Below, one piece after another: positions 41,915-59,563 of a stretch of 64,000 nucleotides of DNA. Origin of the DNA: Glycomyces algeriensis (lineage in GTDB: Bacteria > Actinomycetota > Actinomycetes > Mycobacteriales > Micromonosporaceae). Location of the stretch: assembly GCF_027622855.1 (NCBI RefSeq), contig NZ_JAPZVR010000003.1, positions 165,092-229,091 on the forward strand, written 5' to 3'. Below the pieces are notes generated by a model. It saw only the letters and a program-made list of their open reading frames with translations. It did not search any database and had not been told where the DNA came from. The position numbers were made by a program, and so were the translations under genes. The number at the start of each line of letters is the position of its first letter. The first letter of the stretch is position 1.

Positions 41915-41932
41915 AAACCGTCCAGTCGGTAT
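41915..41932. promoter_or_regulatory. TetR regulon operator, site A
   Basis: AAACCGTCCAGTCGGTAT is one of four copies of the dyad AWACCGWCYRGWCGGTAT in the window. It lies 41 nt before the alcohol dehydrogenase gene that opens the rightward three-gene unit. Confidence 0.75.
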
Positions 41933-41973
41933 GCTGACTTGGTCTCAGCGGACGTGACGACGAGGAGGTCGCC

Positions 41974-43062
41974 GTGCGGATCACCGGAGCCGTGCTGGAG
42001 CGGTGCGGCGCGCCCGCGCCCTACGCCGAGTCGAGGCCGATCACTGTGGGGCCCTTGGAGCTCGACGAGCCCGGGCCCGGCGAGCTGCTGGTGCGGGTGG
42101 AGGCGGCCGGGCTGTGCCACTCCGACCTGTCCGTCGTGGACGGCAGCCGGGTGCGGCCGGTGCCGATGCTCCTGGGCCATGAGGCCGCCGGGATCGTCGA
42201 GGCGGCCGGGCCCGGCACCGCGACCGCGGTCGGACGAAGAGTCGTGCTCACCTTCCTGCCGCGCTGCGGAAGCTGCGCGGCGTGCGGCACCGGCGGGCGG
42301 CTCCCCTGCTCGGTGGGCAGCGCCGCGAACGCCGCCGGGACCCTGGTCGGCGGCGCCGTCAGAATCAGCCGCGACGGCGAGCGCGTGAGCCACCACCTCG
42401 GCGTGAGCGCCTTCGCCACGCACGCCGTGGTCAGCGAGAGCTCGGTGGTGGCGGTCGACGACGAGGTGCCGCCGGACATCGCCGCCCTCCTGGGCTGCGC
42501 GGTGCTCACCGGCGGCGGCGCGGTCGTCAACGCGGGCAGGCCGAACGCGGGCGAGACGGTGGTCGTGGTCGGCCTCGGCGGCGTCGGCATGGCGGCGCTC
42601 CTCGTGGCACAGGCGTTGGGCCACACAGTGGTCGGCGTGGACACCGTGCCGGCCAAGCTCGACCTGGCCCGCTCGCTCGGCGCCGAGGCCCGCGCCCCAG
42701 GCGAGGTCGGGGGCCTGCGGGCGCCCGTGGTCGTCGAGGCCGCCGGCTCGGCGCGGGCGTTCGAGACCGCGTTCGCGCTCACCGCGCCCGGCGGCACCAC
42801 GGTCACCGTGGGCCTGCCGCATCCCGACGCGCGCGCCGCGATCTCCCCGCTGCTCCTGACCGCCGAGGCCCGCACCGTCGTCGGCTCCTACCTCGGCTCG
42901 GCCGTGCCCGGCGACGACGTCCCCCGCTACGCCGAGCTGTGGCGCGCCGGGCGCCTCCCGCTCGACCGGCTCGTCTCCGACAGGATCGGCCTTGACGGCC
43001 TCCCGGCCGCACTGGACCGCCTCGCCTCGGGAGAGGCGCTGCGCCAGCTCATCGTGTTCTGA
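41974..43062 (+). CDS. zinc-dependent alcohol dehydrogenase (MDR family)
   Basis: The 362-residue enzyme has catalytic zinc ligands in GLCHSDLSVVDG and GHEAAG and a structural zinc loop RCGSCAACGTGGRLPC. The NAD-binding motif is VVVGLGGVGMAALL. The GTG at 41974 has GAGGAGG 5 nt upstream. It opens the unit with an SDR and a MaoC dehydratase downstream of operator A. It would oxidise an alcohol, perhaps a hydroxyl of the imported acid or a primary alcohol precursor. Confidence 0.87.
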   Translation: MRITGAVLERCGAPAPYAESRPITVGPLELDEPGPGELLVRVEAAGLCHSDLSVVDGSRVRPVPMLLGHEAAGIVEAAGPGTATAVGRRVVLTFLPRCGSCAACGTGGRLPCSVGSAANAAGTLVGGAVRISRDGERVSHHLGVSAFATHAVVSESSVVAVDDEVPPDIAALLGCAVLTGGGAVVNAGRPNAGETVVVVGLGGVGMAALLVAQALGHTVVGVDTVPAKLDLARSLGAEARAPGEVGGLRAPVVVEAAGSARAFETAFALTAPGGTTVTVGLPHPDARAAISPLLLTAEARTVVGSYLGSAVPGDDVPRYAELWRAGRLPLDRLVSDRIGLDGLPAALDRLASGEALRQLIVF

Positions 43063-43093
43063 CCTACTGACCCTCTTATGGAAAAGGTGCTCA

Positions 43094-43846
43094 ATGACCT
43101 CTAGGACCGCCATCGTCACCGGTGCCGCGCGCGGCATCGGGGCCGCCACCGCCCGGCGGCTCGCCGCCGACGGGCACGCCGTCGCCGTGCTCGACCTCGC
43201 CGAGGAGCAGGCGGTAGCGACCGCCGAAGCGATCAACGCCAAGGGCGGCAAGGCCATCGGCGTCGGCGCGGACGTCGCCGACGAGGCCGCCGCCGCGGCT
43301 GCGGTCGAGCGCGTCGCCGCCGAACTGGGCCCGCCGCAGATCCTCGTCAACAACGCCGGGATCCTCCGCGACAACCTGCTGTTCAAGATGAGCGCTTCGG
43401 ACTGGGACGCCGTCCTCAGCGTCCACCTGCGGGGCGCGTTCCTCATGAGCCGCGCCGTCCAGTCGTCCATGGTGGACGCCGGATGGGGCCGGATCGTCAA
43501 CCTCTCCAGCACTTCCGCGCTGGGCAACCGCGGCCAGGCGAACTACGCCGCCGCGAAGGCCGGCATGCAGGGCCTCACGAAGACCCTCGCGATCGAGCTG
43601 GGCCGCTTCGGGGTCACCGCGAACGCCGTCGCGCCCGGGTTCATCGAGACCGAGATGACGAAGGCCACCGCCGAGCGCATCGGCGTGCCGTTCGCCGACT
43701 TCCTCGCCCACGCCGCCAAGGAGGCGCCGGTCGGCCGTGTCGGGCAGCCCGAGGACGTCGCCGCCGCGGTCGCCTACTTCTGCTCCGAAGACGCCGGGTT
43801 CGTCTCCGGCCAGGTCCTGTACGTGGCGGGAGGGCCGAAGGCATGA
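43094..43846 (+). CDS. SDR oxidoreductase, FabG-like (3-hydroxyacyl-CoA dehydrogenase candidate)
   Basis: The 250-residue short-chain dehydrogenase has the cofactor motif TGAARGIG, NNAG and the catalytic Ser in NLSSTSALG. YAAAKAG supplies the Tyr and Lys. It ends coupled to the MaoC gene by ATGA. In this context it most likely oxidises or reduces a 3-hydroxyacyl-CoA or a 4-oxo/4-hydroxyacyl-CoA. Sequence alone does not tell which. Confidence 0.85.
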   Translation: MTSRTAIVTGAARGIGAATARRLAADGHAVAVLDLAEEQAVATAEAINAKGGKAIGVGADVADEAAAAAAVERVAAELGPPQILVNNAGILRDNLLFKMSASDWDAVLSVHLRGAFLMSRAVQSSMVDAGWGRIVNLSSTSALGNRGQANYAAAKAGMQGLTKTLAIELGRFGVTANAVAPGFIETEMTKATAERIGVPFADFLAHAAKEAPVGRVGQPEDVAAAVAYFCSEDAGFVSGQVLYVAGGPKA

Positions 43847-44304
43847 GCGGCCCGATCACCGCGGCCTCACCCGCGGATCTTGCGAATATCCTGGGCGCCA
43901 AGGCGACCGGCGAGTGGCTCGCGGTCGAGCAGGACCGCATCGACGCGTTCGCCGACGCCACCGGCGACCACCAGTGGATCCACATCGACCCCGAGCGCGC
44001 CGCCGCCGGGCCCTTCGGCGGCCCGATCGCCCACGGGTACCTCACGCTGTCGCTCCTCCCCCGGCTCCTCCAGGGTCTCATCGCGATCGACGGGCTCGCC
44101 ATGTCCGTCAACTACGGGCTCGACCGGCTCCGGTTCCTCCAGCCGGTCCCGGCCGGGGCTCGGGTGCGGGCGGTCGTGGTGCTCGCGTCCGCCGAGGCCA
44201 CCGGGCGCGGCGTGCGCGCCGGGTACGACGTGACCGTGGAGATCGAGGGCGCCGAGAAGCCCGCGCTCGTCGCCAGGACCATCACGCTGTACGTCCCCGA
44301 ATAG
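43843..44304 (+). CDS. MaoC-like enoyl-CoA hydratase
   Basis: The 153-residue single hot-dog protein has the R-hydratase motif FADATGDHQWIHIDPERA (catalytic Asp and His) and GPIAHGYLTLSL. It hydrates a 2-enoyl-CoA to 3-hydroxyacyl-CoA. It is the last gene of the unit from operator A and is followed by a strong terminator. It appears to be the only enoyl-CoA hydratase in the regulon. Confidence 0.88.
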   Translation: MSGPITAASPADLANILGAKATGEWLAVEQDRIDAFADATGDHQWIHIDPERAAAGPFGGPIAHGYLTLSLLPRLLQGLIAIDGLAMSVNYGLDRLRFLQPVPAGARVRAVVVLASAEATGRGVRAGYDVTVEIEGAEKPALVARTITLYVPE

Positions 44305-44312
44305 CGACGCCG

Positions 44313-44402: not shown

Positions 44403-45641
44403 TCAGAGGCGTTCGAGCACCATCGCCATGCCCTGCCCGCCGCCGACGCACATGGCCTCCAGGCCGTAGCGTCCGCCGGTGTCCTCCAGGGCGTTCAGGA
44501 GCGTCGAGGTGATCCGCGCGCCGGTCATCCCGAACGGGTGGCCGACGGCGATCGCGCCGCCCTTGACGTTGAGGCGGTCCTCGTCGATGCCGAGGTCGCG
44601 CGCCGAGGGGATCACCTGCGCGGCGAACGCCTCGTTGATCTCGACCAGGTCGATGTCCTCGATCCCCATGCCCGCCAGCGCGAGTGCGCGCCGCGAGGCC
44701 TCGACGGGTCCGAGCCCCATGACCTCCGGGGAGATGCCGCTGACGCCGGTGGCGACGATCCGGGCGAGCGGCTGGAGGCCGAGTTCGGCGACGACGCGGT
44801 CGGAGACGATGACAAGCGCGGCGGCGCCGTCGTTGAGCGGGCAGGCGTTCCCGGCGGTGACCGTCCCGTTCGGACGGAACACCGGGTCTAGGCCGGCGAG
44901 TTTGGCGATGGTGGTGCCGGGGCGGGGGCCGTCGTCGGCGCTGACGACGGTGCCGTCGGCGAGGGTCACGGGGGTGATGTCCTTGGCCCAGAAGCCTTCG
45001 GCGATGGCGCGGGCGGCGCGCTGCTGGCTGCGGGCGGCGAAGGCGTCCTGCTCGTCGCGGGTGATGCCGCGAATGGCGGCGACGTTCTCGGCGGTCTGGC
45101 CCATGGCGATGTAGGGGTCCGGGAGGAGGCCCTCGTCGCGCGGGTCGGTCCAGGCGGGGTCGCCGCCTCCGGCGCACGTCGTTGAAGAGCGCAGCGCCGT
45201 GCGCTGCAGGGCGTCGGCGAAGCGGGGGTTCTCGAGGTCGGCGCCGGGGATGGCGTCGGCGGAGCCGATGTCCATGCCGGAGACGGATTCGACGCCGGCG
45301 GAGACGAAGACGTCGCCTTCGCCGGCCTTGATGGCGTGGAAGGCCATGCGGGTGGTCTGGAGGCTGGAGGAGCAGTAGCGGGTGACGGTGGCGCCGGGGA
45401 CGGTGTCCCAGCCGAGCATGACGGCGACGATGCGCGCCATGTTCATGCCCTGGCGGCCGCCGGGCAGGCCGCAGCCGAGGAGGAGGTCGTCGATGCGGGC
45501 CGGGTCGAGCCCGGGGACCTTGTCGACGGCGGCGCGGACCATCTGCGCGGCGAGGTCGTCGGCGCGGGTGTCCTTGAGTGAGCCTTTGTGGGCGCGCCCG
45601 ATGGGCGAGCGGGCGGTGGCGACGATGTAGGCCTCGGTCAT
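44403..45641 (-). CDS. acetyl-CoA C-acyltransferase (thiolase)
   Basis: The 412-residue thiolase has nucleophile Cys90 in RYCSSSLQTT, NEAFA, His368 in GHPFGMTGAR and a second Cys398 in MCVGGGQG. It cleaves 3-ketoacyl-CoA to acetyl-CoA and a shortened acyl-CoA. The ATG at 45641 has AAAGGAA upstream. It follows the acyl-CoA dehydrogenase by 11 nt in the leftward unit from operator B. It completes the beta-oxidation set of the regulon. Confidence 0.92.
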   Translation of the reverse strand: MTEAYIVATARSPIGRAHKGSLKDTRADDLAAQMVRAAVDKVPGLDPARIDDLLLGCGLPGGRQGMNMARIVAVMLGWDTVPGATVTRYCSSSLQTTRMAFHAIKAGEGDVFVSAGVESVSGMDIGSADAIPGADLENPRFADALQRTALRSSTTCAGGGDPAWTDPRDEGLLPDPYIAMGQTAENVAAIRGITRDEQDAFAARSQQRAARAIAEGFWAKDITPVTLADGTVVSADDGPRPGTTIAKLAGLDPVFRPNGTVTAGNACPLNDGAAALVIVSDRVVAELGLQPLARIVATGVSGISPEVMGLGPVEASRRALALAGMGIEDIDLVEINEAFAAQVIPSARDLGIDEDRLNVKGGAIAVGHPFGMTGARITSTLLNALEDTGGRYGLEAMCVGGGQGMAMVLERL

Positions 45642-45652: not shown

Positions 45653-46837
45653 TCAGACGAATGCCTGGTGTCCGGTGATCGCCCGGCCGACGATCAGGGT
45701 GTTCATGTCGTAGGTGCCTTCGTAGGAGTAGACGGCCTCGGCGTCGGCGAAGAAGCGGGCGACGCCGTGGTCGAGTTGGATGCCGTTGCCGCCGAGGACT
45801 TCGCGGCAGCGGGCGACGGTCTCGCGCATGCGGGCGGTGCAGAAGGCCTTGGCCATGGCGGCGTGCTCGTCGCGGCGGGTGCCGGCGTCGTCCATCTGGG
45901 AGACGCGGACGCAGACGGCGAGGCCGGCGGTGACGTCGGCGAGGGATTCGGCGAGTTTCTGCTGGACGAGCTGGTAGCTGGCGATGGGGCGGCCGAACTG
46001 CTCGCGTTCCTTGGCGTAGCGGACGGCGGCCTCGTAGGCGCCGACGGCGATGCCCATGGCCTCCCAGGCGACGCCGATGCGGGTGGGGCCGAGGACGCCG
46101 GCGAGGTCTTTGAAGGAGTCGATGCGCTGGAGGCGGTCGGTCTCGGGGACTTCGACGCCTTCGAGGGTGATGTCGGCGTTCTGGACGCCGCGCAGGGACT
46201 GCTTGCGTTCGATCTTCGCAGGCGTGAAGCCGGGGGTGTCTTTGCGGACGACGAAGCCTTTGACCTGGCCGTCGTCGATGTCCTTGGCCCAGATGAGGGT
46301 GATGTCGGCGAAGGTGGCGTTGCCGATCCAGCGTTTGGCGCCGTCGAGGATCCAGGTGTCGCCGCGGCGGGTGGCGGTGGTGCGCAGGCCGCGGGCGGTG
46401 TCGGAGCCGGCGAGGGGTTCGGTGAGGCCGAAGGCGCCGATGACCTCGCCGCGGCCCATGGCAGGGAGCCATTGGGCGCGTTGGGCGTCGGAGCCGCCGA
46501 CGCCGATGGCGCCCATGGCGAGTCCGGAGGTGACGCCGACGAAGGTGGCGAAGGAGGCGTCGACGCGGGCGATCTCGACGGCGGCCCAGCCGCGGAAGAG
46601 GGCGCTGTTCTCGAAGGTGCGGGATTCGGGCCACATGGTGCCGATGACGCCGGTGGCGGCGATGCCGGGGATGAGGTGGTGGGGGAACTCGGCGCGTTCC
46701 CAGTAGTCGTCGGCGATGGGGCGGACCTCGCGTTCCATGAAGTCGCGGATGCGGAGGGCGGCTTCCTGTTCGACGGGGGTGAGGAGGTCTTGGAAGTGGT
46801 AGAAGTCGGCGTCGAGGCCGGTGGGCGCGGTGGTCAT
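45653..46837 (-). CDS. acyl-CoA dehydrogenase (glutaryl-CoA dehydrogenase-like)
   Basis: The 394-residue flavoprotein begins FYHFQDLLTPVEQEAALRIR, as glutaryl-CoA dehydrogenases do. It has the FAD motif FGLTEPLAGSD and the catalytic Glu373 in YEGTYDMNTL. It oxidises an acyl-CoA to the enoyl-CoA, and a glutaryl-like substrate would also be decarboxylated. Conserved glutaryl-binding residues cannot be checked by eye. The ATG at 46837 has an AGGAG site. It is the first gene left of operator B. Confidence 0.85.
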   Translation of the reverse strand: MTTAPTGLDADFYHFQDLLTPVEQEAALRIRDFMEREVRPIADDYWERAEFPHHLIPGIAATGVIGTMWPESRTFENSALFRGWAAVEIARVDASFATFVGVTSGLAMGAIGVGGSDAQRAQWLPAMGRGEVIGAFGLTEPLAGSDTARGLRTTATRRGDTWILDGAKRWIGNATFADITLIWAKDIDDGQVKGFVVRKDTPGFTPAKIERKQSLRGVQNADITLEGVEVPETDRLQRIDSFKDLAGVLGPTRIGVAWEAMGIAVGAYEAAVRYAKEREQFGRPIASYQLVQQKLAESLADVTAGLAVCVRVSQMDDAGTRRDEHAAMAKAFCTARMRETVARCREVLGGNGIQLDHGVARFFADAEAVYSYEGTYDMNTLIVGRAITGHQAFV

Positions 46838-46870: not shown

Positions 46871-46888
46871 AAACCGACCGGTCGGTAT
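46871..46888. promoter_or_regulatory. TetR regulon operator, site B (divergent)
   Basis: AAACCGACCGGTCGGTAT is the most symmetric copy (ACCGACCGGTCGGT is a perfect 14-mer). It lies between the leftward dehydrogenase-thiolase unit and the rightward thioesterase. A -10-like TAGTAT at 46894-46899 follows by 5 nt on the plus strand. Confidence 0.85.
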
Positions 46889-46928
46889 GTAACTAGTATA
46901 GGTGTCCAGTCCACTCCGAGGAGCGACC

Positions 46929-47360
46929 ATGCACAACAATCGCCACCGATTCCCGCTGCGCTGGAACGACAACGACCAGTACGGCCATATGAACAACACC
47001 GTGTACTACGAGGCGATGGATTCGGCGGTGAACACCTGGATGGTGCACCGCGCCGCCCTGGACCCCGCCGGGGACGTGATCGGGCTGGCCCGGGCGTCGT
47101 CGTGCGAGTTCCTGGCGCCCGCCTCGTTCCCGGAGGTCCTGGAGGTCGACATCGCGGTGGCCCGCCTCGGGTCCACCTCGATCACCTGGGACCTGGCGAT
47201 CCTGCGCGAGGGCGCCCCCGATCGGGGCGCCCCGATCGCGCTGGGGCGGTTCACGCACGTGTTCGTGGACCGCGCCGGGCGGCGCCCGGTGCCGGTGCCC
47301 CCGCCGATCCGCACCGCCGTCGAAGCGGAACTGCGGATCGGCGAGGTAGCGGCTCCTTAG
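46929..47360 (+). CDS. acyl-CoA thioesterase (4-hydroxybenzoyl-CoA thioesterase/YbgC family)
   Basis: The 143-residue hot-dog enzyme has the family motif RWNDNDQYGHMNNTVYYEAM, with the catalytic Asp in NDND and GHMNN. The ATG at 46929 has GAGGAG 6 nt upstream. It releases CoA from an acyl-CoA, perhaps as a relief valve for stalled intermediates. Its stop overlaps the stop of the acyl-CoA ligase gene by 4 bp in convergent orientation. Confidence 0.88.
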   Translation: MHNNRHRFPLRWNDNDQYGHMNNTVYYEAMDSAVNTWMVHRAALDPAGDVIGLARASSCEFLAPASFPEVLEVDIAVARLGSTSITWDLAILREGAPDRGAPIALGRFTHVFVDRAGRRPVPVPPPIRTAVEAELRIGEVAAP

Positions 47361-48940
47361 GATCCGTACTCCTCGACGAGCGCGCGCTTGAGGACCTTCC
47401 CGCTCGCCCCGAGCGGGAGCTCCTCGACCACGTGCACGACCCGGGGGTACTTGTACGCCGCGACCTTCTCCTTCATGTAGGCCACGACCTCCGCCGCGTC
47501 GACGGCGGCGCCGTGGGCGGGGACGACCGCGGCGTGCACCTCCTGCCCGTGCGTCTCGTGCGGGACGCCGAAGACGGCCGCGATCGAGACGTGCGGGTGA
47601 CGGGCGAGGACCGCCTCGACCTCCGTGGGGTACACGTTGTAGCCGTTGCGGATGATCATGTCCTTTTTTCGGTCCACAATGGTGACCACATGCTCCGCGT
47701 CGACGGTGCCGAGGTCGCCGGTGCGGAACCAGCCGTCCACGATGGTCTGCGCGGTCGCGTCGGGCCGCCCGAGGTAGCCCTTCATGAGGTTGTGGCCGCG
47801 CACGACGATCTCGCCGAGCTCCCCGGGGCCGAGGAGGTCGATCCGGTCCTCGGTGTCGGGGTCGGCGACCGCGACGTCCACGCCCCAGATCGGGGTGCCC
47901 ACCGTGCCGGGCCGGATCGGCTCGTCCACTTTGTTGAACGTGCACGACGGCGCGGTCTCGGTGAGCCCGTAGCCCTCGTGGACCTGCGCGCCGAAGGCCC
48001 GCTCGAACGCCTCCAGGAGCGCCACCGGCAGGGCCGCGCCGCCGGAGACGGCGTACCGCAGCGGCGGCCGGTACGCGGTGCGCCCGGCGGCCTCGACCAT
48101 CCCGGCGAAGTTCGTCGGCACCGCCGTGAACACCGTCGCCCCGTACTGGTTGAGCAGCGCCAGCGCCTCGTCCGGGTCGAACTTCGGGAGCAGGATGATC
48201 GCCGCCCCGCGCCGGAACGCGATGTTGAGCACGGCCATCTGCCCGAAGGAGTGGAAGAACGGCAGGCCGCCGTAGACCACGTCGTCGCTGCGCAGCGGGA
48301 ACGAGTCGATGAGCGAGACGTGGACCTGCTCGACCATGGCCAGGTGCGAGCCGACCGCGCCCTTCGGGGTCCCGGTCGTGCCGGAGGTGTACAGGATCGT
48401 GGCGGCGTCAAGCGGGTTGACGGAGGTGTACCGCTGGATCGGTTCGGCTTGCGCCGCTTCGGCTTCCAAGCGCGGCAGCGGATGGCCGCCGATCTCGAGG
48501 CCCTCCGGGGCGAGCACCGAGACGAGGGGGACGCCGGCGCGGGCGGCGGCCGGGGCGGCTTCGACCAGGAGCGGTGCGGCGGCGACCAGGAGGTCGGCCT
48601 CGGCGTCCTCGAGGACGAACGCGATCTCGTCGGCCTTGAACAGGAGGTGGATGGGGACGATCACGGCCCCGAGCGCGAGCGCGGCGTAGTAGACGCGCGG
48701 GAAGTCGGGGACGTTGGGCACGAGCATGGCGACCCGGGAGCCGCGCCCGATGCCGCGGGCGGCGAGCGCCCCGGCGTAGGCGCGGGTCTGGTCCCACAGC
48801 TCGCCGTACTTGACGGTGCGGCCCATGAAGTGCAGGGCGGGGGCGTCGGGCCGGCGGCGGGCGCTCTCGGCGAGGATGGCCGCGATCGAGAGGGTCCCGT
48901 GTCCGGGGCCGTCGACGGCGGGGTCGTTGCGGTGCGTCAT
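47357..48940 (-). CDS. acyl-CoA synthetase (AMP-forming, FadD/LvaE-like)
   Basis: The 527-residue ANL-family ligase has the P-loop-like YTSGTTGTPKGAVG, GYGLTETAPS and GWFRTGDLG. RNGYNVYPTEVEAVLARHP and the C-terminal catalytic Lys in GASGKVLKRAL complete it. It activates the imported carboxylic acid with ATP and CoA. The ATG at 48940 overlaps the stop of the acyl-CoA dehydrogenase gene (ATGA). It is the last gene of the long leftward unit from operator C. Confidence 0.9.
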   Translation of the reverse strand: MTHRNDPAVDGPGHGTLSIAAILAESARRRPDAPALHFMGRTVKYGELWDQTRAYAGALAARGIGRGSRVAMLVPNVPDFPRVYYAALALGAVIVPIHLLFKADEIAFVLEDAEADLLVAAAPLLVEAAPAAARAGVPLVSVLAPEGLEIGGHPLPRLEAEAAQAEPIQRYTSVNPLDAATILYTSGTTGTPKGAVGSHLAMVEQVHVSLIDSFPLRSDDVVYGGLPFFHSFGQMAVLNIAFRRGAAIILLPKFDPDEALALLNQYGATVFTAVPTNFAGMVEAAGRTAYRPPLRYAVSGGAALPVALLEAFERAFGAQVHEGYGLTETAPSCTFNKVDEPIRPGTVGTPIWGVDVAVADPDTEDRIDLLGPGELGEIVVRGHNLMKGYLGRPDATAQTIVDGWFRTGDLGTVDAEHVVTIVDRKKDMIIRNGYNVYPTEVEAVLARHPHVSIAAVFGVPHETHGQEVHAAVVPAHGAAVDAAEVVAYMKEKVAAYKYPRVVHVVEELPLGASGKVLKRALVEEYGS

Positions 48941-50172
48941 CGCGCCACTCCTTCCAATGGTTCGAGCGCCAGTTCGGTCTTCCCGAGCGCGGCCGCGTGG
49001 ACCTCGTCGGGGCCGTCGGCGAGGCGCAGGGACCGCGCGGCGGCGAACATCTCGGCGAGCGGGTGGTCGCCGGTGAGCCCGGCGGCCCCGAACAGCTGGA
49101 TCGCATGATCGAGGATCCGCTGCACCGCACGGGGGACGGCGACCTTGATCGCCTGGATCTCCTTCATGGCGGCGCGGTTCCCGGCGGTGTCCATGAGCCA
49201 GGCGGTCTTGAGGACCAGGAGCCGCAGGGCCTCGATCTCGACGCGGGCGTCGGCCGCCCATTCGCGCACGACCCCCTGCCGGACGAGCGGGCCGCCGAAG
49301 GCGACGCGGTCGTTCGCCCTGCCGCGCATCAGGTCGAGGGCGCGTTCGGCCATGCCGAGCGCCCGCATGCAGTGGTGGATGCGGCCGGGGCCGAGGCGGG
49401 CCTGAGCGATGGCGAAGCCGTCGCCCTCGCCGCCGAGGAGGTTCGCGGCGGGCACGCGCACGTCCTCGAAGAGGATCTCGGCGTGGCCGCCGTGGTCGCG
49501 GTCGTCGTAGCCGAACACGGTGAGCGGCCGGATGATGTGGACGCCGGGGGTGTCGCGCGGGACGAGGAGCATGGACTGCTGGCGGTGCCGCGGCCCGTTC
49601 GGGTCCGTCTTGCCCATGACGATCAGCAGCTTGCAGTCGGGGTTCATCGCGCCGGTGGCGAACCACTTGCGGCCGTTGACCACCCATTCCCCGCCGTCCC
49701 GGTGGATGCGGGTGCCGATCTGGGAGGCGTCGGAGGAGGCGGTGCCGGGCTCGGTCATGCAGAACGCCGAGCGCAGGCGCGCCTCCAGGAGCGGTTCGAG
49801 CCAGGCCTCCCGCTGCTCGGCGGTGCCGAAGTGCGCGAGGAGCTCCATGTTGCCGGTGTCGGGCGCGGCGCAGTTCATGGCGGCCGGAGCGAGCCGGGGG
49901 CTGCGGCCGGTGAGCTCGGCGACCGGCGCGTAGCGCAGGTTCGAGAGGCCGCCGCCGTAGCCGTGCGGGCCGGGCGGCAGGAACAGGTTCCACAGGCCGC
50001 GCTCCTGCGCGGTCTCCTGGAGGGCGCGCACGACGGGGCGCACGGTCCAGTCGCCGGGCCCGTCCTCGATCTGCTTCGCGAGCACGGGTTCGGCGGGCAG
50101 CACGTGCTCGTCCAGGAACGCGCGCGCCTCGTCCGCGAAGGCGACGGTCATCTCGTCCGGTCGGAAATCCAC
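48937..50172 (-). CDS. acyl-CoA dehydrogenase, ACAD10/11 and LvaC-like
   Basis: The 411-residue flavoprotein begins with a GTG at 50172 (AGGAGG 4 nt upstream) that overlaps the kinase gene by 25 bp. The N-terminus DFRPDEMTVAFADEARAFL and AFCMTEPGTASSDASQIGT match the ACAD10/11 branch. FAGGPL-type and QLFGAAGLTGDHPLAEMF segments follow. In P. putida LvaC and in mammalian ACAD10/11, such proteins work with an APH-type kinase to eliminate phosphate from 4-phosphoacyl-CoA. The tight coupling here supports the same job. Ordinary acyl-CoA dehydrogenation remains possible. Confidence 0.85.
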   Translation of the reverse strand: MDFRPDEMTVAFADEARAFLDEHVLPAEPVLAKQIEDGPGDWTVRPVVRALQETAQERGLWNLFLPPGPHGYGGGLSNLRYAPVAELTGRSPRLAPAAMNCAAPDTGNMELLAHFGTAEQREAWLEPLLEARLRSAFCMTEPGTASSDASQIGTRIHRDGGEWVVNGRKWFATGAMNPDCKLLIVMGKTDPNGPRHRQQSMLLVPRDTPGVHIIRPLTVFGYDDRDHGGHAEILFEDVRVPAANLLGGEGDGFAIAQARLGPGRIHHCMRALGMAERALDLMRGRANDRVAFGGPLVRQGVVREWAADARVEIEALRLLVLKTAWLMDTAGNRAAMKEIQAIKVAVPRAVQRILDHAIQLFGAAGLTGDHPLAEMFAAARSLRLADGPDEVHAAALGKTELALEPLEGVAR

Positions 50173-52493: not shown

Positions 52494-53507
52494 TCACCTC
52501 TCTGTGGTCGTGGAAGGGGTTGCGAAGCGGAGGGGCCGGGCGGCGCGGAGCCGGTCGAGCAGGCGGGCGGCGCCGCCCGGCCAGGCGGTGGTCAAGGCGA
52601 TGAGACCCGCGCCGAAGAGGAGCAGGGCGAGGTTGCCGTCCAGGCGCCGGCCGAGGTCGTCGGGGGCGAGGGCCGCGAGTTCGTCGATGAGCCAGGGAAG
52701 GACGGTCACGAGGACGGATCCGATGGCCGCGCCTCCGATGCTGCCGAGGCCGCCGATGACGGCGGCGACGACGAGCAGGAGCGAGAACGCCAGGCCGTAG
52801 CCGCCGGGCGTGACCTGCTGCGTGGCGATCGCCAGGACCGCGCCGCCGAGCCCGGCGGGGACGGCGCTGGCGACGAACGCGCCGGTCTTCACCGCGCCCG
52901 GGTCCACTGCGGACAGGCGGGAGGCGGTCTCGTCGTCGAGGACCGCCCGCATTCGCAGTCCGGCGCTCCCCGAGCGCAGGACCACCAGGGGCGTCACGGC
53001 GATCGCGGCGACGACGATGGCGAGCCAGGCGTGCCACTGCTCGACCGCGATGAGGGCCGCGAGTGCTTCGGGCACAGGGAAGAACGGGGCGGGGGCGCCT
53101 TGGTCGCCGCCGAGCGGCAGCGTGTTCGCGGCCGCGGGGAGGGCGATGACGAGTGCGAGCGTGAGCCCGGCGAGGTAGGGGCCGCGCAGCCGGGCCGCGG
53201 CCGCGCCGAGGAGCAGCCCGAGGAGTCCCGAGACGACGGCTGCGGCGGCGAGGCCTGCGAGCAGGGCCAGCGGCCACGGGCCGTCGACGGCCGAGGCTGC
53301 GAAGGCGAAGCCGTAGCCGCCCGCGGCCATGAGCACGGCGTGGCCGAGCGAGAGCTGCCCGGTGAGTCCGACCAGGACGGTGAGTCCGGCGACGGCGGCG
53401 AAGCACGCCGCCGCGAGCGCGAGCTGGTAGTTGCGGAACGGGTCGAGGGCGAACGTCCCGCCGATGGCGAGGAGCGTGATGAGCAAGGCGCGCAGGAGGG
53501 TCTTCAT
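52494..53507 (-). CDS. HAAT ABC transporter permease 2 (LivM-type)
   Basis: The 337-residue permease has about nine to ten helices. It has LTVLVGLTGQLSLGHAVLMA near residue 45 and the cytoplasmic loop SAGLRMRAVLDDETASRLSA near residue 195. It overlaps the LivH-type gene by 4 bp (ATGA). It forms one half of the channel for the putative carboxylate importer. Confidence 0.87.
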   Translation of the reverse strand: MKTLLRALLITLLAIGGTFALDPFRNYQLALAAACFAAVAGLTVLVGLTGQLSLGHAVLMAAGGYGFAFAASAVDGPWPLALLAGLAAAAVVSGLLGLLLGAAAARLRGPYLAGLTLALVIALPAAANTLPLGGDQGAPAPFFPVPEALAALIAVEQWHAWLAIVVAAIAVTPLVVLRSGSAGLRMRAVLDDETASRLSAVDPGAVKTGAFVASAVPAGLGGAVLAIATQQVTPGGYGLAFSLLLVVAAVIGGLGSIGGAAIGSVLVTVLPWLIDELAALAPDDLGRRLDGNLALLLFGAGLIALTTAWPGGAARLLDRLRAARPLRFATPSTTTER

Positions 53508-54382
53508 GCGGTCCTGGCCTCCTTCGGGGCGAACAGGCCGCCGGGTCGGACGAGCAGGACGAGGGTCATGAGCGCGAGTACCGCGAGCGGCGCGGCCGAG
53601 GCCGAGGCGTACCCGGTGACGAGGCTGACGAGCAGGCCGACGCCGATCCCGGCGACGAGCGCCCCGGCGGGCGAGTCGAGGCCGCCGATGACCGCGACGG
53701 CGAAGGCGTTCACGAAGAGGAGGTCGACGGCGTGCGGGTTGAGCCCGAGTTCGGTGGGCACCAGCAGGAGCGCGGCGAGTGAGGCGGCGGCGCACGAGAG
53801 CGCCCAGCCGAGGGTGATCATGCGCGGCACCCGGACCCCGAGGAGCCGGGCGGTCTCGGGGGCGAACGCGGCGGCCCGCAGCCGGAGGCCGAGGGAGGAG
53901 CGGTTGAACAGGAGCGCGAGGGCGGCCATGACCGCGGCGGCGGCCCCGAGGGTGAACAGGTCGTAAGGCGAGAGCACGGGGATGCCGCCGATGATGAAGG
54001 GCCGCTGCGAGAACGGCGGCTGCATCGGGCGGTGCTCGGGGCCGAACGCGATCGCGAGCCCGGCCTGAAGGACCATGACGAGCCCGATCGCGACGATGAT
54101 GCCCGGCAGGGGCGCGTGCGCGGGGAGGCGGCGCATGAGGCCGCGTTCCACGATCGCGCCGAGGAGGGCGCCCGCGGCGAGTCCGGTGAGCAGGCCGGCC
54201 CAGTAGGAGCCGGTCGCGGCGGTGACGGCGAAGGCCGCGTAGACGGCCGCGACGGCCATGGCGGCCTGCGCGAAGTTCACGACCCGCGCGGTGCGCCACA
54301 CGATGACCAGCGACAGCGCGAAGAGCGCGAGCACGGCCCCGCGGGCGAGCCCGGCGGAGAGGAGGAAGACGAACCGGTCCAT
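53504..54382 (-). CDS. HAAT ABC transporter permease 1 (LivH-type)
   Basis: The 292-residue permease starts MDRFVFLLSAGLARGAVLAL. It has the helices and loop SSLGLRLRAAAFAPETARLL near residue 165, and GGLDSPAGALVAGIGVGLL. Its ATG at 54382 overlaps the stop of the repetitive frame inserted between it and livF (TGATG). Without the insert the same TGATG would couple it to livF. Confidence 0.87.
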   Translation of the reverse strand: MDRFVFLLSAGLARGAVLALFALSLVIVWRTARVVNFAQAAMAVAAVYAAFAVTAATGSYWAGLLTGLAAGALLGAIVERGLMRRLPAHAPLPGIIVAIGLVMVLQAGLAIAFGPEHRPMQPPFSQRPFIIGGIPVLSPYDLFTLGAAAAVMAALALLFNRSSLGLRLRAAAFAPETARLLGVRVPRMITLGWALSCAAASLAALLLVPTELGLNPHAVDLLFVNAFAVAVIGGLDSPAGALVAGIGVGLLVSLVTGYASASAAPLAVLALMTLVLLVRPGGLFAPKEARTA

Positions 54383-54915
54383 CAGTACGACCCCGATCCG
54401 CTTGCGGCTCGGCCTGCACGCATCGGCGTCGGACCCTGGTCGGGGCGGCCGGGTGCGGAGAGGACCGCCGCTCCGAGCCGGCACGACACGTCCGCGGATC
54501 GGTCGTGCGGTGAAGCCCCGGCGCAAGAGATGGACGGGCGCGGCGGCGACGCGGGGCCGCGGCCCAGCGAGGCGTGCGAGAGGAAGCGCGCCACCGCTTC
54601 GAGCTCCGGCGACACGGACGCGCCGCGCGACAGGTCCGCGAATCGGCCATCCGGCGACACCGCGGCGCAGGCGGAGGAGAGGCGCGGCGGAGAGGCGTGC
54701 GACAGGAAGCGCACCACCGCTCCGATCCGCAGCGTCGCGGACGCGCCGCACCAGCACGACACGTTCGCGGATCGGCTATGCGGGACCGCGCCGGAGCTCA
54801 GGAGGGCGTGCGACGGGAAGTCCGCCGTCGCACGAGGCGCCGTTGCGGTGCCGGAGGCCCGCCGGCGTCGTGCCCCGGTTCGGCGGGGAGCGGGCAAGGC
54901 GAGGAGTCGGTCCAT
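54382..54915 (-). repeat. 533-bp repetitive insert between livF and livH, bounded by an 11-bp direct repeat
   Basis: The leftward strand reads CTGATGGACCG at both junctions (near 54915 and near 54382), each time as stop plus ATG (TGATG). Inside are imperfect tandem units of roughly 110-125 bp. The motif GGCGTGCGA recurs at 54571, 54694 and 54805, and a CACGACACGT(T/C)CGCGGATCGG block recurs near 54480-54500 and 54755-54775. A 177-residue frame with no known domain spans it exactly (RFLSHAS twice). It could be a mobile non-coding repeat with a target duplication or a fast-evolving coupled peptide. I favour the first. Confidence 0.65.
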
Positions 54916-55631
54916 CAGAACCCCAGGTAGGCGTGGCGGAGGGCGGGGTCGGCGGCGAGCTCGGCCGCCGGGCGGTCGGCGACGACCGTGCCGAGGGAGA
55001 GCACGACGCCGCGTTGGGCCACCGACAATGCGCCGGTGACGTTCTGCTCGGCGAGGAGCACCGTGAGGCCGGTGCGCGCCGCGGTCTCGCGGAGCACCCC
55101 GAGGAGCTGCGCGGTCGCCTTGGGCGCCAGGCCGAGCGAGGGCTCGTCCAGCAGCAGCACCTCGGGCCGGGCGAGGAGTGCGCGGGCGAGGGCCAGCATC
55201 TGCCGCTCCCCGCCCGAGAGGGTGTGCCCGGCCGCGCGGCGGCGCCGGTCCAGCGGCGGGAACAGGGCGTACATCTCCTCGACGGCGGCCTTGCGGGCCT
55301 TCGGCTTGTGGCGCCAGAGGCCGCCGAGGTGGAGGTTCTCGTCCACCGTGAGCTCGACGACGACGCTGCGCCCTTCGGGGACGAGCGCGAGCCCCGACCG
55401 GACCCGGTCCTCAGTCGACAGTGCGGTGAGCTCGCGGCCGCCGAGCCTGATCCGTCCGGTGCGGACGGGTTCGAGTCCGGCGAGCGCCCGCAGCAGCGTG
55501 GTCTTGCCGGCGCCGTTCGCTCCGAGGAGGGCGACGACCGCGCCTTCGGCGATGCCGAGGTCGAGGCCGTCGATGACGGGCGCGCCGTCGCCGTACCCGA
55601 CCGTGAGGCCTTCGCAGGCGAGCGCGCTCAT
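54915..55631 (-). CDS. HAAT ABC transporter ATP-binding protein 2 (LivF-type)
   Basis: The 238-residue ATPase has Walker A GANGAGKTT, SGLALVPEGRSVVVELTVDE, signature TLSGGERQMLALAR, Walker B VLLLDEPSLGLAP and switch LLAEQNV. The PEGR segment is typical of LivF. It overlaps LivG by 4 bp. Its stop overlaps the start of the repetitive frame in TGATG. Confidence 0.9.
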   Translation of the reverse strand: MSALACEGLTVGYGDGAPVIDGLDLGIAEGAVVALLGANGAGKTTLLRALAGLEPVRTGRIRLGGRELTALSTEDRVRSGLALVPEGRSVVVELTVDENLHLGGLWRHKPKARKAAVEEMYALFPPLDRRRRAAGHTLSGGERQMLALARALLARPEVLLLDEPSLGLAPKATAQLLGVLRETAARTGLTVLLAEQNVTGALSVAQRGVVLSLGTVVADRPAAELAADPALRHAYLGF

Positions 55632-56356
55632 GCGGCGGCCTCCAGTCCGAGGTAGGCGGCCTCGACCGCCGGGTCGCCCTGCACCGCTTCGGGAGTGCCG
55701 GAGGCGATGACCTGACCGAAGTCGAGCACGACGATCCGGTCGGCGACCCGCATGACGAAGTCGACGTGGTGCTCGACGAGGAGCACGGCGCGGCCGGAGC
55801 CGGCCACGCGGCCGACGGTCTCGGCGAGGGCGTCGATGTCGGCGGTGCCCAGGCCGCCCGCGGGCTCGTCGAGGAGGAGCAGCTTCGGGTCGGCGGCGAG
55901 GGCTCGGGCGAGCGCGACGCGCTTGCGCTCGGGGTACGGGAGGGTCCCGGCGGGCCGGGCGGCGAGGTCCGCGAGCCCGAGCTCCGCGAGGGTGCTGTGC
56001 GCCTTGGCGACCGCGTCGGGGACGCGCAAGGCCGTGAGCGGGACGAGCACGTTTTCGAGGACGGTCATGCGCTCGAACAGGCCGAGGCCCTGGAGGGTCC
56101 GGGCGACGCCGGCCTTGAGGAGGCCGGTGGGCCTGGAAGGGGCGGGCCGCCCGCCGATGCGCACGGTCCCCTTGCGGGGCTTGACGAGTCCGCAGACGGC
56201 GTTGAAGACCGTCGTCTTGCCGGCGCCGTTGGGGCCGATGAGCGCGACGGTCTCGCCGTCGCGCACCTCGAAGGAGACGCCGTCGAGGGCGGTGAGGCCG
56301 CCGAAGGCGACCTCGAGGCCGCTCACTGAGAGCCGGGGAGGGGGAGGGGTGTTCAT
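55628..56356 (-). CDS. HAAT ABC transporter ATP-binding protein 1 (LivG-type)
   Basis: The 242-residue ATPase has Walker A GPNGAGKTT, Walker B LLLLDEPAGGLG and switch VEHHVDFVMRVAD. The signature region is TLPYPERKRVALARAL, which lacks the LSGGQ form, as in many LivG proteins but with PER in place of GQQ. It is the first gene of the long leftward unit, 49 nt from operator C. Confidence 0.88.
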   Translation of the reverse strand: MNTPPPPRLSVSGLEVAFGGLTALDGVSFEVRDGETVALIGPNGAGKTTVFNAVCGLVKPRKGTVRIGGRPAPSRPTGLLKAGVARTLQGLGLFERMTVLENVLVPLTALRVPDAVAKAHSTLAELGLADLAARPAGTLPYPERKRVALARALAADPKLLLLDEPAGGLGTADIDALAETVGRVAGSGRAVLLVEHHVDFVMRVADRIVVLDFGQVIASGTPEAVQGDPAVEAAYLGLEAAA

Positions 56357-56404
56357 CGTCGTACTCGCACCTCTTCGTGTCGGAGTGCGTTCACCATACC
56401 GCAG

Positions 56405-56422
56405 ATACCGACCGGACGGTAT
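56405..56422. promoter_or_regulatory. TetR regulon operator, site C
   Basis: ATACCGACCGGACGGTAT lies before livG and governs the importer, kinase, dehydrogenase and ligase unit. On the minus strand a -10-like TATGGT (plus positions 56393-56398) follows by 6 nt, the same geometry as at site B. Confidence 0.8.
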
Positions 56423-56472: not shown

Positions 56473-57228
56473 TCAGGTGTGGGGGATGCCGGTGGTCATA
56501 CCGCCGTCGACCACGATCTCGGCGCCGGTGACGTACGCGGAGGCGTCCCCCGCGAGGAACACGAGGGCCCCCGCGAGATCCGCTGGGGCGCCGGGGCGCC
56601 CGAGCGGGATGAGGAGCCGCGCGGGGTCGATGCGGGTGGTCATCTCGGTCTCGATGAAGCCGGGGTGGATCGAGTTGACGCGGATGCCGTCGCGGCCGAG
56701 CTCGACGGCGAGCGACTTCGTGAGGCCCCGGACGCCGAACTTGGTCGCGGTGTAGCCGTGGAGGCGCTCGCTCCCCCGCAGTCCCTCAACTGAGGACACG
56801 TTGACGATCGAACCGCGCCCGGCGGCCTTCATGGCCGGCACGACCGCGCGGCAGCCGAGGAAGGTCCCGGTGAGGTTCACGGCCAGGACCGTGTTCCACT
56901 TCGCGAGGGTGAAGTGCTCGATCGGGGCCGCGTTCGCCATCCCGGCGTTGTTGACGAGCACGTCGACCGCGCCGAAGCGCTCGAGCGTCTCGGCCACCGC
57001 ACGGTCCCAGGCCTCCTCGTCGGTGACGTCGAGTTCGCAGAAGGAGGCCCGCCCGGCACCGGGCGCGGCGTCCGCGCCGAGTTCCTCCGCGAGCGCTTCC
57101 CCTTGGTCCGCAAGGATGTCGGTGATCACGACGTGCGCGCCCTCGGCGTGGAGCGCGCGCACGTAGGTCGCGCCGATGCCGCGCGCGCCGCCCGTGACGA
57201 TCGCGACGCGCCCCTCGAGCCCGCTCAC
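56473..57228 (-). CDS. SDR-family oxidoreductase
   Basis: The 251-residue short-chain dehydrogenase has TGGARGIG, NNAG, NVSSVEG, and YTATKFG with the catalytic Tyr and Lys. The C-terminal GAEIVVDGGMTTG is typical of FabG-like enzymes. The GTG at 57228 overlaps the MDR stop (GTGA). It is the last gene of the unit from operator D. It may act as a 3-hydroxyacyl-CoA or a 4-oxoacyl-CoA dehydrogenase (an LvaD-like role). Confidence 0.85.
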   Translation of the reverse strand: MSGLEGRVAIVTGGARGIGATYVRALHAEGAHVVITDILADQGEALAEELGADAAPGAGRASFCELDVTDEEAWDRAVAETLERFGAVDVLVNNAGMANAAPIEHFTLAKWNTVLAVNLTGTFLGCRAVVPAMKAAGRGSIVNVSSVEGLRGSERLHGYTATKFGVRGLTKSLAVELGRDGIRVNSIHPGFIETEMTTRIDPARLLIPLGRPGAPADLAGALVFLAGDASAYVTGAEIVVDGGMTTGIPHT

Positions 57229-58205
57229 TCCCCCACCGCCACGACCAGCCGCCCGGTGGTGGTGCCGTCGGCGAGCCGCTGGACCGCCGCGGCCGCGTCC
57301 TCGAAGGGAACGGTCTCGGACACGACCGGGCGCACCGCGCCCTCGTCGGCGAGCCTGGTCAGCGCGGCGTGCGCCCCGGCCACGAGGTCCGGCCGCTTGC
57401 GCTGGTACAGGGCCCAGTGGAGGCCGAGCACGCTGTAGTTCTTGACCAGGGCGTGGTCCGCGCGCACGGGCGGGACCTCGCCCGAGGCGAAACCGACCAC
57501 GACGATGCGGCCCTCGAAGCCGACCACCTTCGTCGAGCCCGCGAACGCCTTGCCGCCCACGGGGTCGAAGACGACGTCGACGCCGCCCTCGGCCTTGACC
57601 GCGCCGATCCAGTCGTCGCCGCGCAGCAGGACCCGCGCGGCTCCGGAGTCCTCGGCGACCGGAATCTTGGCCTTGTCGCCGACGATGCCGACCACGTTCG
57701 CCCCGGCGGCCGCACCGAGCTGGCACGCGGCCGTGCCTACGCCGCCCGCGGCGGCGTGGACGAGCAGCGTCTCTCCACTCTGGAGCCGAGCGCGCTGGTG
57801 GAGCCCGAACCAGGCGGTCTGGTACGCGATGAGGAAGGCCGCAGCGGCCGCGTCGTCGAGCGACTCGGGAGCCGGATGCACCGAGAAGGCGGGGACGACC
57901 GCGTACTCGGCCATCACGCCGATCGCGGTCGCGACCACCCGCTGCCCCACGGTGACCGCATCGACGCCGGGCCCGAGCGCGGCGACCTCGCCGCACAGCT
58001 CGATGCCGGGCGTGAACGGCAGCGGCGGCCGCTCCTGGTACATGCCGCGGGCCAGCAGCACGTCGGGGAAGTTCACGGCCACGGCCCGGTTGCGCACCAG
58101 GACCTCGCCGGGGCCCGGTTCGGGGACCGGCACCTCCTCGACCGACATGACGTCGGCGGGCTCGCCGTGGGCGGCGACCCGCCACGCGATCATGGGTTCA
58201 GCCAT
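57225..58205 (-). CDS. NADPH:quinone oxidoreductase-like MDR enzyme
   Basis: The 326-residue MDR protein without structural zinc has NFPDVLLARGMYQERPPLPF and PGIELCGEVAALG. VHAAAGGVGTAACQLGAAAG is its NADPH-binding motif. Relatives reduce quinones or 2-enoyl compounds. The ATG at 58205 overlaps the end of the TetR gene by 8 bp. The role in the regulon may be reduction of an unsaturated acyl-CoA. Confidence 0.85.
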   Translation of the reverse strand: MAEPMIAWRVAAHGEPADVMSVEEVPVPEPGPGEVLVRNRAVAVNFPDVLLARGMYQERPPLPFTPGIELCGEVAALGPGVDAVTVGQRVVATAIGVMAEYAVVPAFSVHPAPESLDDAAAAAFLIAYQTAWFGLHQRARLQSGETLLVHAAAGGVGTAACQLGAAAGANVVGIVGDKAKIPVAEDSGAARVLLRGDDWIGAVKAEGGVDVVFDPVGGKAFAGSTKVVGFEGRIVVVGFASGEVPPVRADHALVKNYSVLGLHWALYQRKRPDLVAGAHAALTRLADEGAVRPVVSETVPFEDAAAAVQRLADGTTTGRLVVAVGE

Positions 58206-58782
58206 CGGTCCTCCGCAGGCTTCGCAGGAACAGCTCGGTGATCTGGGCGGCCAGTTCGGCCTCGTTCTCGGGGCCCTCGTGGGAGTACCAGTGGGGCAGG
58301 TAGTGGATGTCGGAGAAGAAGTGCGCGATGAGCACCGAGACCGGCACGTCGTCGCGGAACCGCCCCTCCTCCTGGCCGCGCACGATGAGCTCGGCGAACT
58401 TGTCGTGGTACTCGCGCCTGCGGCGCTTCACCTCCGCCTGCCGCTCGGGGGTGAGCATGTGCTGGCTGCGGAAGAACACCGTGCCCTCGGGCAGGAAGTC
58501 GATCGAGGTCACCACCACGTCTTCGCACACCGCCCGCAGGACCGCCTCGGTCTCGCCGCCCTTGGCGGTGATCTCGTCGAGGCGTCGCTTCTGGAGCGAG
58601 AGCATCCGCTCGTAGATCGCGAAGAGCAGGTCGTCCTTCGACGTGAAGTAGTGGTACATCGCGCCCTTGGTGACGCCTGCGGCCTGCACGATCTGCTGGA
58701 CGCTGGTGTTGGCGTACCCCTGCTCGGCGAACAGTTCCAATGCGGCTCTGAGGACCTCGTCGGCCACGTTCTTGGTCTTCAT
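58198..58782 (-). CDS. TetR-family regulator, probable repressor of the 41.9-59.6 kb regulon
   Basis: The roughly 194-residue protein has the TetR helix-turn-helix ELFAEQGYANTSVQQIVQAA then GVTKGAMYHYFTSKDDLL. A helical ligand domain follows (SQHMLTPERQAEVKRRRREY). ATGs occur at 58791 and 58782. The GAAGG site touches the first and is 9 nt from the second, so 58782 is preferred. It is encoded in the unit behind operator D, which suggests autoregulation. Acyl-CoA intermediates are likely inducers, as for FadR, KstR2 or PaaR-type TetR proteins. Confidence 0.85.
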   Translation of the reverse strand: MKTKNVADEVLRAALELFAEQGYANTSVQQIVQAAGVTKGAMYHYFTSKDDLLFAIYERMLSLQKRRLDEITAKGGETEAVLRAVCEDVVVTSIDFLPEGTVFFRSQHMLTPERQAEVKRRRREYHDKFAELIVRGQEEGRFRDDVPVSVLIAHFFSDIHYLPHWYSHEGPENEAELAAQITELFLRSLRRTDG

Positions 58783-58794
58783 GGATCCCATCCT

Positions 58795-59535
58795 TCACCA
58801 GGAGCGGCGCGCGCTCGCGCCGCCGTCCACGAGGATCGTCTGCCCGGTGACCCAGGCGGCGTCCTCGGAGAGCAGGAACGCGGCCGGCCCGGCCACGTCG
58901 TCGGGGGCGCCGAGGCGGGCGAGCGGGTACGCGCCCGCGGCCTCCGCCTCGCGGCCCTCGTACAGCGCCTTCGAGAAGCGGGACTTGATCACCGCGGGCG
59001 CCAGCGCGTTCACGCGGACGGCCGGGGCGAGCTCCTCCGCGAGCTGCTCGGTCAGGTTGATCAAGGCGGCCTTGGAGACCCCGTAGAAGCCGATGCCGGG
59101 GCTGGAGGCCGTGCCGGCGATGGAGGCCATGTTGACGACCGCCTTGAGGCGGCCCGCGGCGGCGGCCCGGCGGGTCCAGCCCAGTGCGGCGATCACGTTG
59201 ACTTCGAGGATCTTGCGGGCCGCGTCGAGGTCGATGCCGGTGAGGGGCCCGTAGGCGGGGTTGACGCCGGCGTTGTTGACGAGGTGGTCGAGGCCGCCGA
59301 AGCGCTCGGCGGCGTGCGCGACCGCTGCGGCCTGGTGGTCGGGGTCGTCGGCCTTGCCGGCGACGCCCGAGGCGCGTTCCTCGCCGAGTTCGGCGACCGC
59401 GGCTTTCAGCGCGTCCTCGTCCCGGCCGGTGATGACCACCGATGCGCCTTCGCTGACGAGCCGGTGGGCGATGGCGAGGCCGATGCCCCTGCTCGCCCCG
59501 GTGATCAGGGCGACGCTGCCCTCGAACCTCTGCAT
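58795..59535 (-). CDS. SDR-family oxidoreductase
   Basis: The 246-residue SDR has TGASRGIG, NNAG, NMASIAGTAS, YGVSKAA with the catalytic pair, and VDGGASARRSW at the end. The ATG at 59535 gives the normal 8-10 residue lead before the cofactor motif. It is the first gene downstream of operator D, whose edge is only 10 nt away, so the leader is short or absent. It is followed by the TetR gene after a few nt. Confidence 0.85.
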   Translation of the reverse strand: MQRFEGSVALITGASRGIGLAIAHRLVSEGASVVITGRDEDALKAAVAELGEERASGVAGKADDPDHQAAAVAHAAERFGGLDHLVNNAGVNPAYGPLTGIDLDAARKILEVNVIAALGWTRRAAAAGRLKAVVNMASIAGTASSPGIGFYGVSKAALINLTEQLAEELAPAVRVNALAPAVIKSRFSKALYEGREAEAAGAYPLARLGAPDDVAGPAAFLLSEDAAWVTGQTILVDGGASARRSW

Positions 59536-59545
59536 GCACGACTCC

Positions 59546-59563
59546 AAACCGTCTGGTCGGTAT
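59546..59563. promoter_or_regulatory. TetR regulon operator, site D
   Basis: AAACCGTCTGGTCGGTAT precedes the SDR-TetR-MDR-SDR unit. Control of its own unit by the TetR protein is the simplest reading. Confidence 0.75.

Follow-up and report, generated by a model that had tools for sequence, protein, structure and literature searches.

The window analyzed here, a 64-kb stretch of the Glycomyces algeriensis genome, carries at positions 41974 to 59535 a group of 18 genes that is predicted to be controlled by one TetR-type repressor acting at copies of an 18-bp palindrome. Gene frames were set by the GC content at the codon positions and by stop-to-stop reading, families were assigned by NCBIfam, Pfam, and Protein Data Bank (PDB) sequence searches, and transcription units were predicted by grouping genes according to orientation and spacing. 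Four such units, each with one palindrome at its head (sites A to D; Table 1), cover all 18 genes, so that every gene would lie behind a site: (i) unit A (plus strand) consists of three genes, encoding an alcohol dehydrogenase (ADH), a short-chain dehydrogenase/reductase (SDR), and a MaoC-like protein; (ii) unit B is divergent, with an acyl-CoA dehydrogenase (ACAD) gene and a thiolase gene on the minus strand and a thioesterase gene on the plus strand; (iii) unit C (minus strand, eight genes) runs from livG, livF, livH, and livM through the genes for a substrate-binding protein, an APH-fold kinase, and a further ACAD to that for an AMP-forming ligase; and (iv) unit D (minus strand, four genes) contains an SDR gene, tetR, a quinone oxidoreductase-like gene, and another SDR gene. 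The original prediction, made from the DNA letters of this stretch, had described these units as encoding import, activation, beta-oxidation, and a TetR regulator, and this needs one amendment: the beta-oxidation set includes a kinase-dehydrogenase pair that is familiar from the breakdown of 4-hydroxy acids.

The four near-identical palindromes that the original prediction had placed at 41915, 46871, 56405, and 59546 all matched its consensus, AWACCGWCYRGWCGGTAT, exactly when the window was rescanned, and each lies directly before a predicted transcription unit, as had been claimed. The position of site D before the SDR-tetR pair suggests autoregulation. No other AWACCGWCYRGWCGGTAT match was present in the window, even with three mismatches allowed, in line with the claim that a fifth copy is missing there; at the same tolerance, 100 shuffled windows had a mean of 0.21 and a maximum of 2 matches. 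For the whole genome (5.59 Mb, 34 contigs), base composition predicts ~0.001 perfect copies of the symmetric form AWACCGWCYRGWCGGTWT. Five were found, namely, sites A to D and position 176209 of contig C12 (site E), which has one mismatch to AWACCGWCYRGWCGGTAT. The scatter over unrelated promoters that the original prediction had regarded as fatal to a regulon was therefore not seen. The next-best match had two mismatches and is located in the interval that separates an MFS gene from a further TetR gene (C1:65196), and all remaining matches found had three. One of the latter, AATCAGACCGGTCGTTAT, is present twice (C1:701437 and C12:170869, in loci L011 and L014), perhaps within a repeat.

Loci for comparison were chosen by TetR protein similarity alone, as the best 80 of 477 relatives found in a scan of genome contigs (62% to 97% identity in the best segment), and derive from genera including Glycomyces, Promicromonospora, Isoptericola, Microbacterium, Agromyces, Cellulomonas, and Kineosporia. 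The palindrome was present with at most one mismatch in 76 of the 80 loci and with at most two in 78. In total, 158 sites were counted in 1.52 Mb of TetR loci, versus a mean of 0.4 in shuffles that move pairs of successive bases and none with the reversed pattern, and with bins of 250 bases, 75 of the 158 fall into those at -750 and -1000 from tetR, which is the place of site D. When the 18 window proteins were mapped on these loci, sites were found upstream of SDR-tetR, of livG, of a turned-round APH-ACAD11 operon, and of the thioesterase or ACAD gene; the arrangements are many, and despite the rearrangements the sites keep to the same gene starts. Two Kineosporia loci, in which the SDR gene was not found, have the palindrome (one to two mismatches) immediately before tetR, and in two Leucobacter loci a site precedes livG of flipped liv operons. 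Since related bacteria keep the palindromes beside the same regulator gene, the comparison supports control of the four gene groups, plus a fifth site elsewhere in the genome, by one putative repressor, and with it the earlier proposal that the TetR encoded at 58198 binds all four sites. As a separate observation, the Leucobacter clusters L095 and L097 each have two to three matches to the Liv-type substrate-binding protein.

The association was also followed by hand-counted sites in 22 genomes of the genus, including the window's own, with G002 (TetR stretch reads N) and G017 (contig ends at site C) set aside as uninformative. The TetR gene is present in 13 of the 22 genomes and the kinase gene in 15. 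All 13 TetR-bearing genomes have sites with at most one mismatch, and in all 13 these include sites C and D. The seven genomes that have neither TetR nor kinase have no sites, apart from G005, G006, and G018, where a GTAC-type site is flanked, as in the window's genome, by an MFS gene and the gene for a different TetR. At the level of the class (345 genomes, 127 genera), a relative of the TetR (E value cutoff of 1e-45) was identified in 72 genomes from 22 genera, and a site with at most one mismatch was counted by hand in 64 of these 72 genomes versus 45 of the 273 others (Fisher test, 7e-31, a value that ignores phylogeny). Six distant TetR neighborhoods (L182 to L187) were read individually. 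L185 has a one-mismatch site before APH-ACAD11 and beside tetR, L187 has a site upstream of a run of SDR, APH, and ACAD11 genes, L183 carries sites before tetR and before ACAD11 (one each), and L182 has an exact site beside tetR and no close ACAD11-type gene.

The -10-like elements said to follow sites B and C by 5 to 6 nucleotides (nt) are indeed there, and a further one lies upstream of site D (Table 1). Because a generic sigma-70 scan of positions 41500 to 60300 gave no promoter-like match, the geometry rests on aligned relatives: TAnnnT occurs 5 to 6 nt after the site in 19 of the 21 rows listed for site C, TAGTAT or TAGGAT occurs 5 nt after the site in 6 of the 7 rows for site B, and TAnnnT occurs 6 to 7 nt before site D in the window and in most Glycomyces rows. 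This arrangement would fit steric exclusion at B and C, where a repressor bound just upstream of the -10 element would keep the polymerase off, and a roadblock combined with autoregulation at D, where the site starts 6 nt after the -10 element.

The TetR protein scores above the gathering thresholds of both PF00440 (TetR_N) and PF17932 (TetR_C_24), the latter of which is also found in PfmR and KstR2. Its PDB sequence matches include PfmR (3vpr; 71 bits) and KstR2 (53 bits), and a Foldseek search of the PDB with its AlphaFold model (pLDDT, 92.8) returned, among its best matches, PfmR (TM score, 0.86), KstR2 (0.86), AibR (0.83 to 0.84), and DarR (0.79 to 0.82); these four and FadR belong to the solved TetRs that are closest to it in sequence or fold. 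The stretch TSVQQIVxAAGVTKGAMYHYF is nearly invariant in an alignment of the window TetR with 26 of the 80 relatives (27 sequences). KstR2, AibR, and FadR are acyl-CoA-responsive TetRs, and their operators and pathways differ from those of the window TetR. By analogy with its PfmR-, KstR2-, and AibR-like relatives, the window TetR may respond to an acyl-CoA. PfmR (TTHB023) of Thermus thermophilus, which is among its best matches in both sequence and fold, is reported as a TetR of fatty acid and phenylacetate genes with a palindromic operator of related core (PMC7022988). The two proteins share 28% identity in the structural alignment, they come from different phyla and go with different gene sets, and their operator consensus sequences are only partly alike. 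These comparisons support the presence of a conserved, putatively PfmR/KstR2-like TetR regulon.

Table 1. Palindromic sites, -10-like elements, and predicted genes of the cluster (window positions)
Feature	Position	Strand	Basis or remark
Site A	41915..41932		AAACCGTCCAGTCGGTAT; precedes ADH-SDR-MaoC unit
Zinc-dependent alcohol dehydrogenase	41974..43062	+	NCBIfam/Pfam
SDR, FabG-like	43094..43846	+	Family search
MaoC-like hydratase	43843..44304	+	PF01575
Acetyl-CoA acyltransferase (thiolase)	44403..45641	-	Exceeds NCBIfam cutoff of NF005890
Acyl-CoA dehydrogenase	45653..46837	-	Nearest solved relative is peroxisomal acyl-CoA oxidase 4
Site B	46871..46888		AAACCGACCGGTCGGTAT; between divergent ACAD (-) and thioesterase (+) genes
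-10-like TAGTAT	46894..46899	+	5 nt past site B
4HBT thioesterase	46929..47360	+	PF13279
AMP-forming acyl-CoA ligase	47357..48940	-	Family search
ACAD10/11-LvaC-type acyl-CoA dehydrogenase	48937..50172	-	PDB search; conserved P96, R259, D386
APH-fold kinase, LvaA/ACAD11 kinase-domain type	50148..51197	-	Residues D211, N216, R73, R168
Liv-type substrate-binding protein	51223..52488	-	PF13458
LivM-type permease	52494..53507	-	Family search
LivH-type permease	53504..54382	-	Family search
LivF-type ATPase	54915..55631	-	Family search
LivG-type ATPase	55628..56356	-	Family search
-10-like TATGGT	56393..56398	-	6 nt past site C
Site C	56405..56422		ATACCGACCGGACGGTAT; precedes livG
SDR	56473..57228	-	Family search
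Quinone oxidoreductase-like MDR enzyme	57225..58205	-	Family search
TetR regulator, PfmR/KstR2-like	58198..58791	-	PF00440 and PF17932
SDR, first gene of tetR unit	58795..59535	-	Family search
Site D	59546..59563		AAACCGTCTGGTCGGTAT; precedes SDR-tetR
-10-like TAGGGT	59570..59575	-	6 nt upstream of site D

The putative substrate can be narrowed down from the kinase and dehydrogenase genes of unit C, which adjoin the acyl-CoA ligase gene. The dehydrogenase scored 427 to 432 bits to human and mouse ACAD11 (432 to human), 401 bits to the related putative ACAD 4hr3, and 146 bits to the next chain. The residues singled out in work on ACAD10/11 are, for the dehydrogenase, a catalytic Asp together with one Pro and one Arg and, for the kinase, an Asp, an Asn, and two Arg residues (PMC12440821, PMC11342911). 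In the window dehydrogenase, D386 (catalytic Asp), P96 (helix-breaking Pro), and R259 (phosphate Arg) align with the ACAD11 residues, the Pro and Arg having been matched to the published human numbering via a small offset from the chain numbering; in the kinase, D211, N216, R73, and R168 align with mouse ACAD11 D220, N225, R86, and R176, i.e., the catalytic Asp, its partner Asn, and the CoA-contact Arg pair. As the diagnostic residues are kept, the module should phosphorylate 4-hydroxyacyl-CoA and eliminate the phosphate to give enoyl-CoA. The pair thus points to 4-hydroxyacyl-CoA catabolism, and 4-hydroxy (or 4-oxo) fatty acids are the likely substrates. The same combination of a kinase and an ACAD10/11-type dehydrogenase with these conserved residues characterizes the Lva system of Pseudomonas putida and mammalian ACAD10-ACAD11 (PMC12440821, PMC11342911), a likeness that for Lva was judged via the ACAD11 alignments. 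Unlike Lva, the window module has a Liv-type transporter, many redox enzymes, and predicted TetR control. The lva genes of Pseudomonas are under a sigma-54-type activator.

We consider it probable that the TetR, as a dimer, binds AWACCGWCYRGWCGGTWT at the four window promoters and at site E and represses the genes for 4-hydroxy acid import and breakdown until an acyl-CoA derived from the substrate releases it. The Liv-type ABC transporter would import the acid and the AMP-forming ligase would activate it, after which the LvaA-type kinase would phosphorylate the 4-hydroxyl, the ACAD10/11-LvaC-type dehydrogenase would eliminate the phosphate, and MaoC, the SDRs, and the thiolase would hydrate, oxidize, and cleave the product. 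Site E would place a LuxR-type regulator gene, which has a cutinase-like gene and a malate synthase gene as neighbors, under the same TetR.

Several observations weigh against this reading. Among the 13 TetR-bearing genomes of the genus, site A was found with at most one mismatch in 9 and site B in 6, and 2 of the 80 TetR-selected loci (L059 and L079) have no site within two mismatches. Of the 72 class genomes with a TetR relative, 8 have no site within one mismatch, 10 have no ACAD11-type gene within 15 kb among the matches listed, and 30 belong to one genus; shared descent and the clustering of genes act as confounders wherever TetR, site, and catabolic genes occur together. Two of the six distant neighborhoods (L184 and L186) contained neither a site within two mismatches nor any other gene of the set. 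No clear -10 element is seen at site C in L032 and L034 or at site B in L144. The cutinase gene of the window's genome has no site within three mismatches, and only the LuxR gene has one. Finally, the fold of DarR, which is reported to bind c-di-AMP (PMC10636190), is as close as those of the acyl-CoA binders, and the ligand class is therefore less certain.

It is also conceivable, but in our view rather unlikely, that a genuine regulon is devoted to the ordinary breakdown of short-chain or branched-chain acyl-CoA, with the kinase and ACAD11-type pair being incidental. The Liv-type transporter, the dehydrogenase resembling acyl-CoA oxidase 4, and the thiolase suit many acids, and the related regulators KstR2 and AibR control other acyl-CoA pathways. 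Against this, the catalytic and phosphate-site residues of the pair are kept, and at least 62 of the 72 class genomes have an ACAD11-type gene no more than 15 kb from the TetR relative (median distance, 1.8 kb), although ACAD11-type genes are common anyway (at least 216 of the 345 genomes at an E value of 1e-120).

The original prediction drew the TetR regulon at about 18 kb; its regulon reading is supported by the data above, and its boundary is not, because a fifth member appears to reside at a LuxR/cutinase locus elsewhere in the genome. Site E is located just upstream of the start of a gene (L118:4210-5945) for a 567-amino-acid protein with a LuxR-type GerE domain, and TACGAT begins 2 nt after it. 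This gene adjoins those for a malate synthase and for a predicted PETase-like hydrolase with a signal-like N terminus (by eye), which matched PF12740 and PET hydrolase and cutinase chains in searches with a query that began 72 codons too far upstream, in frame. The LuxR gene (>55% identity) was found in 12 of the 22 genomes of the genus, the other 10 having only relatives of ≤39%; it is present in 10 of the 13 TetR-bearing genomes and in none of the 7 that have neither TetR nor kinase. All 12 LuxR/cutinase loci carry the site: before the LuxR gene in 11 (7 exact, 2 with one mismatch, 1 with two, and 1 with three) and before the cutinase gene in 5, each with one mismatch (L136:2552, L137:5367, L179:3658, L180:2933, and L181:2993). 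TAnnAT follows the LuxR-side site by 2 nt in 11 of 11 rows listed, and 6 of the 12 stretches showed a malate synthase gene. The further exact match and the sites across the LuxR loci thus indicate that the regulon reaches beyond the 18 kb. That site E falls outside the regulon is improbable, even though it is on another contig, its neighbors include no beta-oxidation enzymes, and three of the 13 TetR-bearing genomes (G004, G012, and G020) have no LuxR gene. On the cutinase side of the window's genome, the flank GTGATTTC-CCGATGC is kept and the palindrome is replaced.

Plant cutin is a polyester with mid-chain hydroxy acids, and a 10-hydroxy acid would yield 4-hydroxyacyl-CoA after three rounds of beta-oxidation. 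Only tentatively, and with more doubt than confidence, we entertain a wider scheme in which an actinobacterial TetR subfamily senses 4-hydroxy- or 4-phosphoacyl-CoA and acts across Actinomycetes as a general repressor of the LvaA-LvaC/ACAD10-11-type pathway. Its control in the Glycomyces group would extend, directly or via LuxR, to a secreted cutinase and perhaps to the glyoxylate shunt, thereby tying the breakdown of extracellular polyester such as cutin to the use of its mid-chain hydroxy acids.

Beyond the cluster and the LuxR locus, matches with at most one mismatch in the genus were (i) GTAC-type sites in ten further genomes, (ii) a second copy of site A that lies where a contig ends (G013:C16), and (iii) a single, unexplained one-mismatch site at G001:C4:71182. 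The GTAC type bears on whether another TetR of the genome, such as the MFS-linked one at C1:65196, binds sites A to D, which is very improbable. Its own site, GTACCGTCCGGACGGTAC, is only two letters off the consensus, and TetRs may cross-recognize operators; yet the MFS site has the ACCGTC half on both sides and the window sites never do, and the Kineosporia palindromes stand right before the window-type tetR. We rejected this regulator as the binder, as its locus and the GTAC-type site persist in G005, G006, and G018, where A to D are absent. The window TetR and the MFS-linked TetR share 22% identity over 68 residues. GTACCGTCCGGACGGTAC itself (L006:1501, the C1:65196 match) recurs likewise in three more genomes of the genus and is a possible source of cross talk. 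Least probable of all is a PaaR-type phenylacetate regulon: PaaR (BCAL0210) of Burkholderia cenocepacia is a TetR repressor reported on genetic grounds, and the paaA promoter carries, between -35 and -10, the operator core ACCGACCGGTCGGT, whose 14 bp are shared with site B (PMC2770484), but PaaR controls phenylacetate genes, and we rejected this reading because the listed NCBIfam matches of the 18 window genes include no Paa family except PaaZ, via the MaoC domain.

For the preferred reading, control of 4-hydroxy acid catabolism by the window TetR, no publication was recognized as describing this regulon among titles and abstract starts, in a literature whose coverage leaves out most subscription journals; for cutinase plus TetR and for levulinic acid plus TetR, there was no relevant regulon among the matches listed. 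Under this reading, a bacterial counterpart of the ACAD10/11 pathway, the mammalian enzymes of which were reported in 2024 and 2025 (PMC11342911, PMC12440821), would gain a candidate regulator together with an exact operator. Since the operator is common to loci of many actinobacterial genera, one prediction covers dozens of species. Should the link to a cutinase/PETase-like gene be confirmed, it would reveal how a bacterium can sense the products of polyester breakdown.

Within unit C, the livF-livH gap (54383 to 54914, ~530 bases) contains three to four imperfect repeats of ~125 bases, and the same gap measures ~230 and 16 bases in two relatives.

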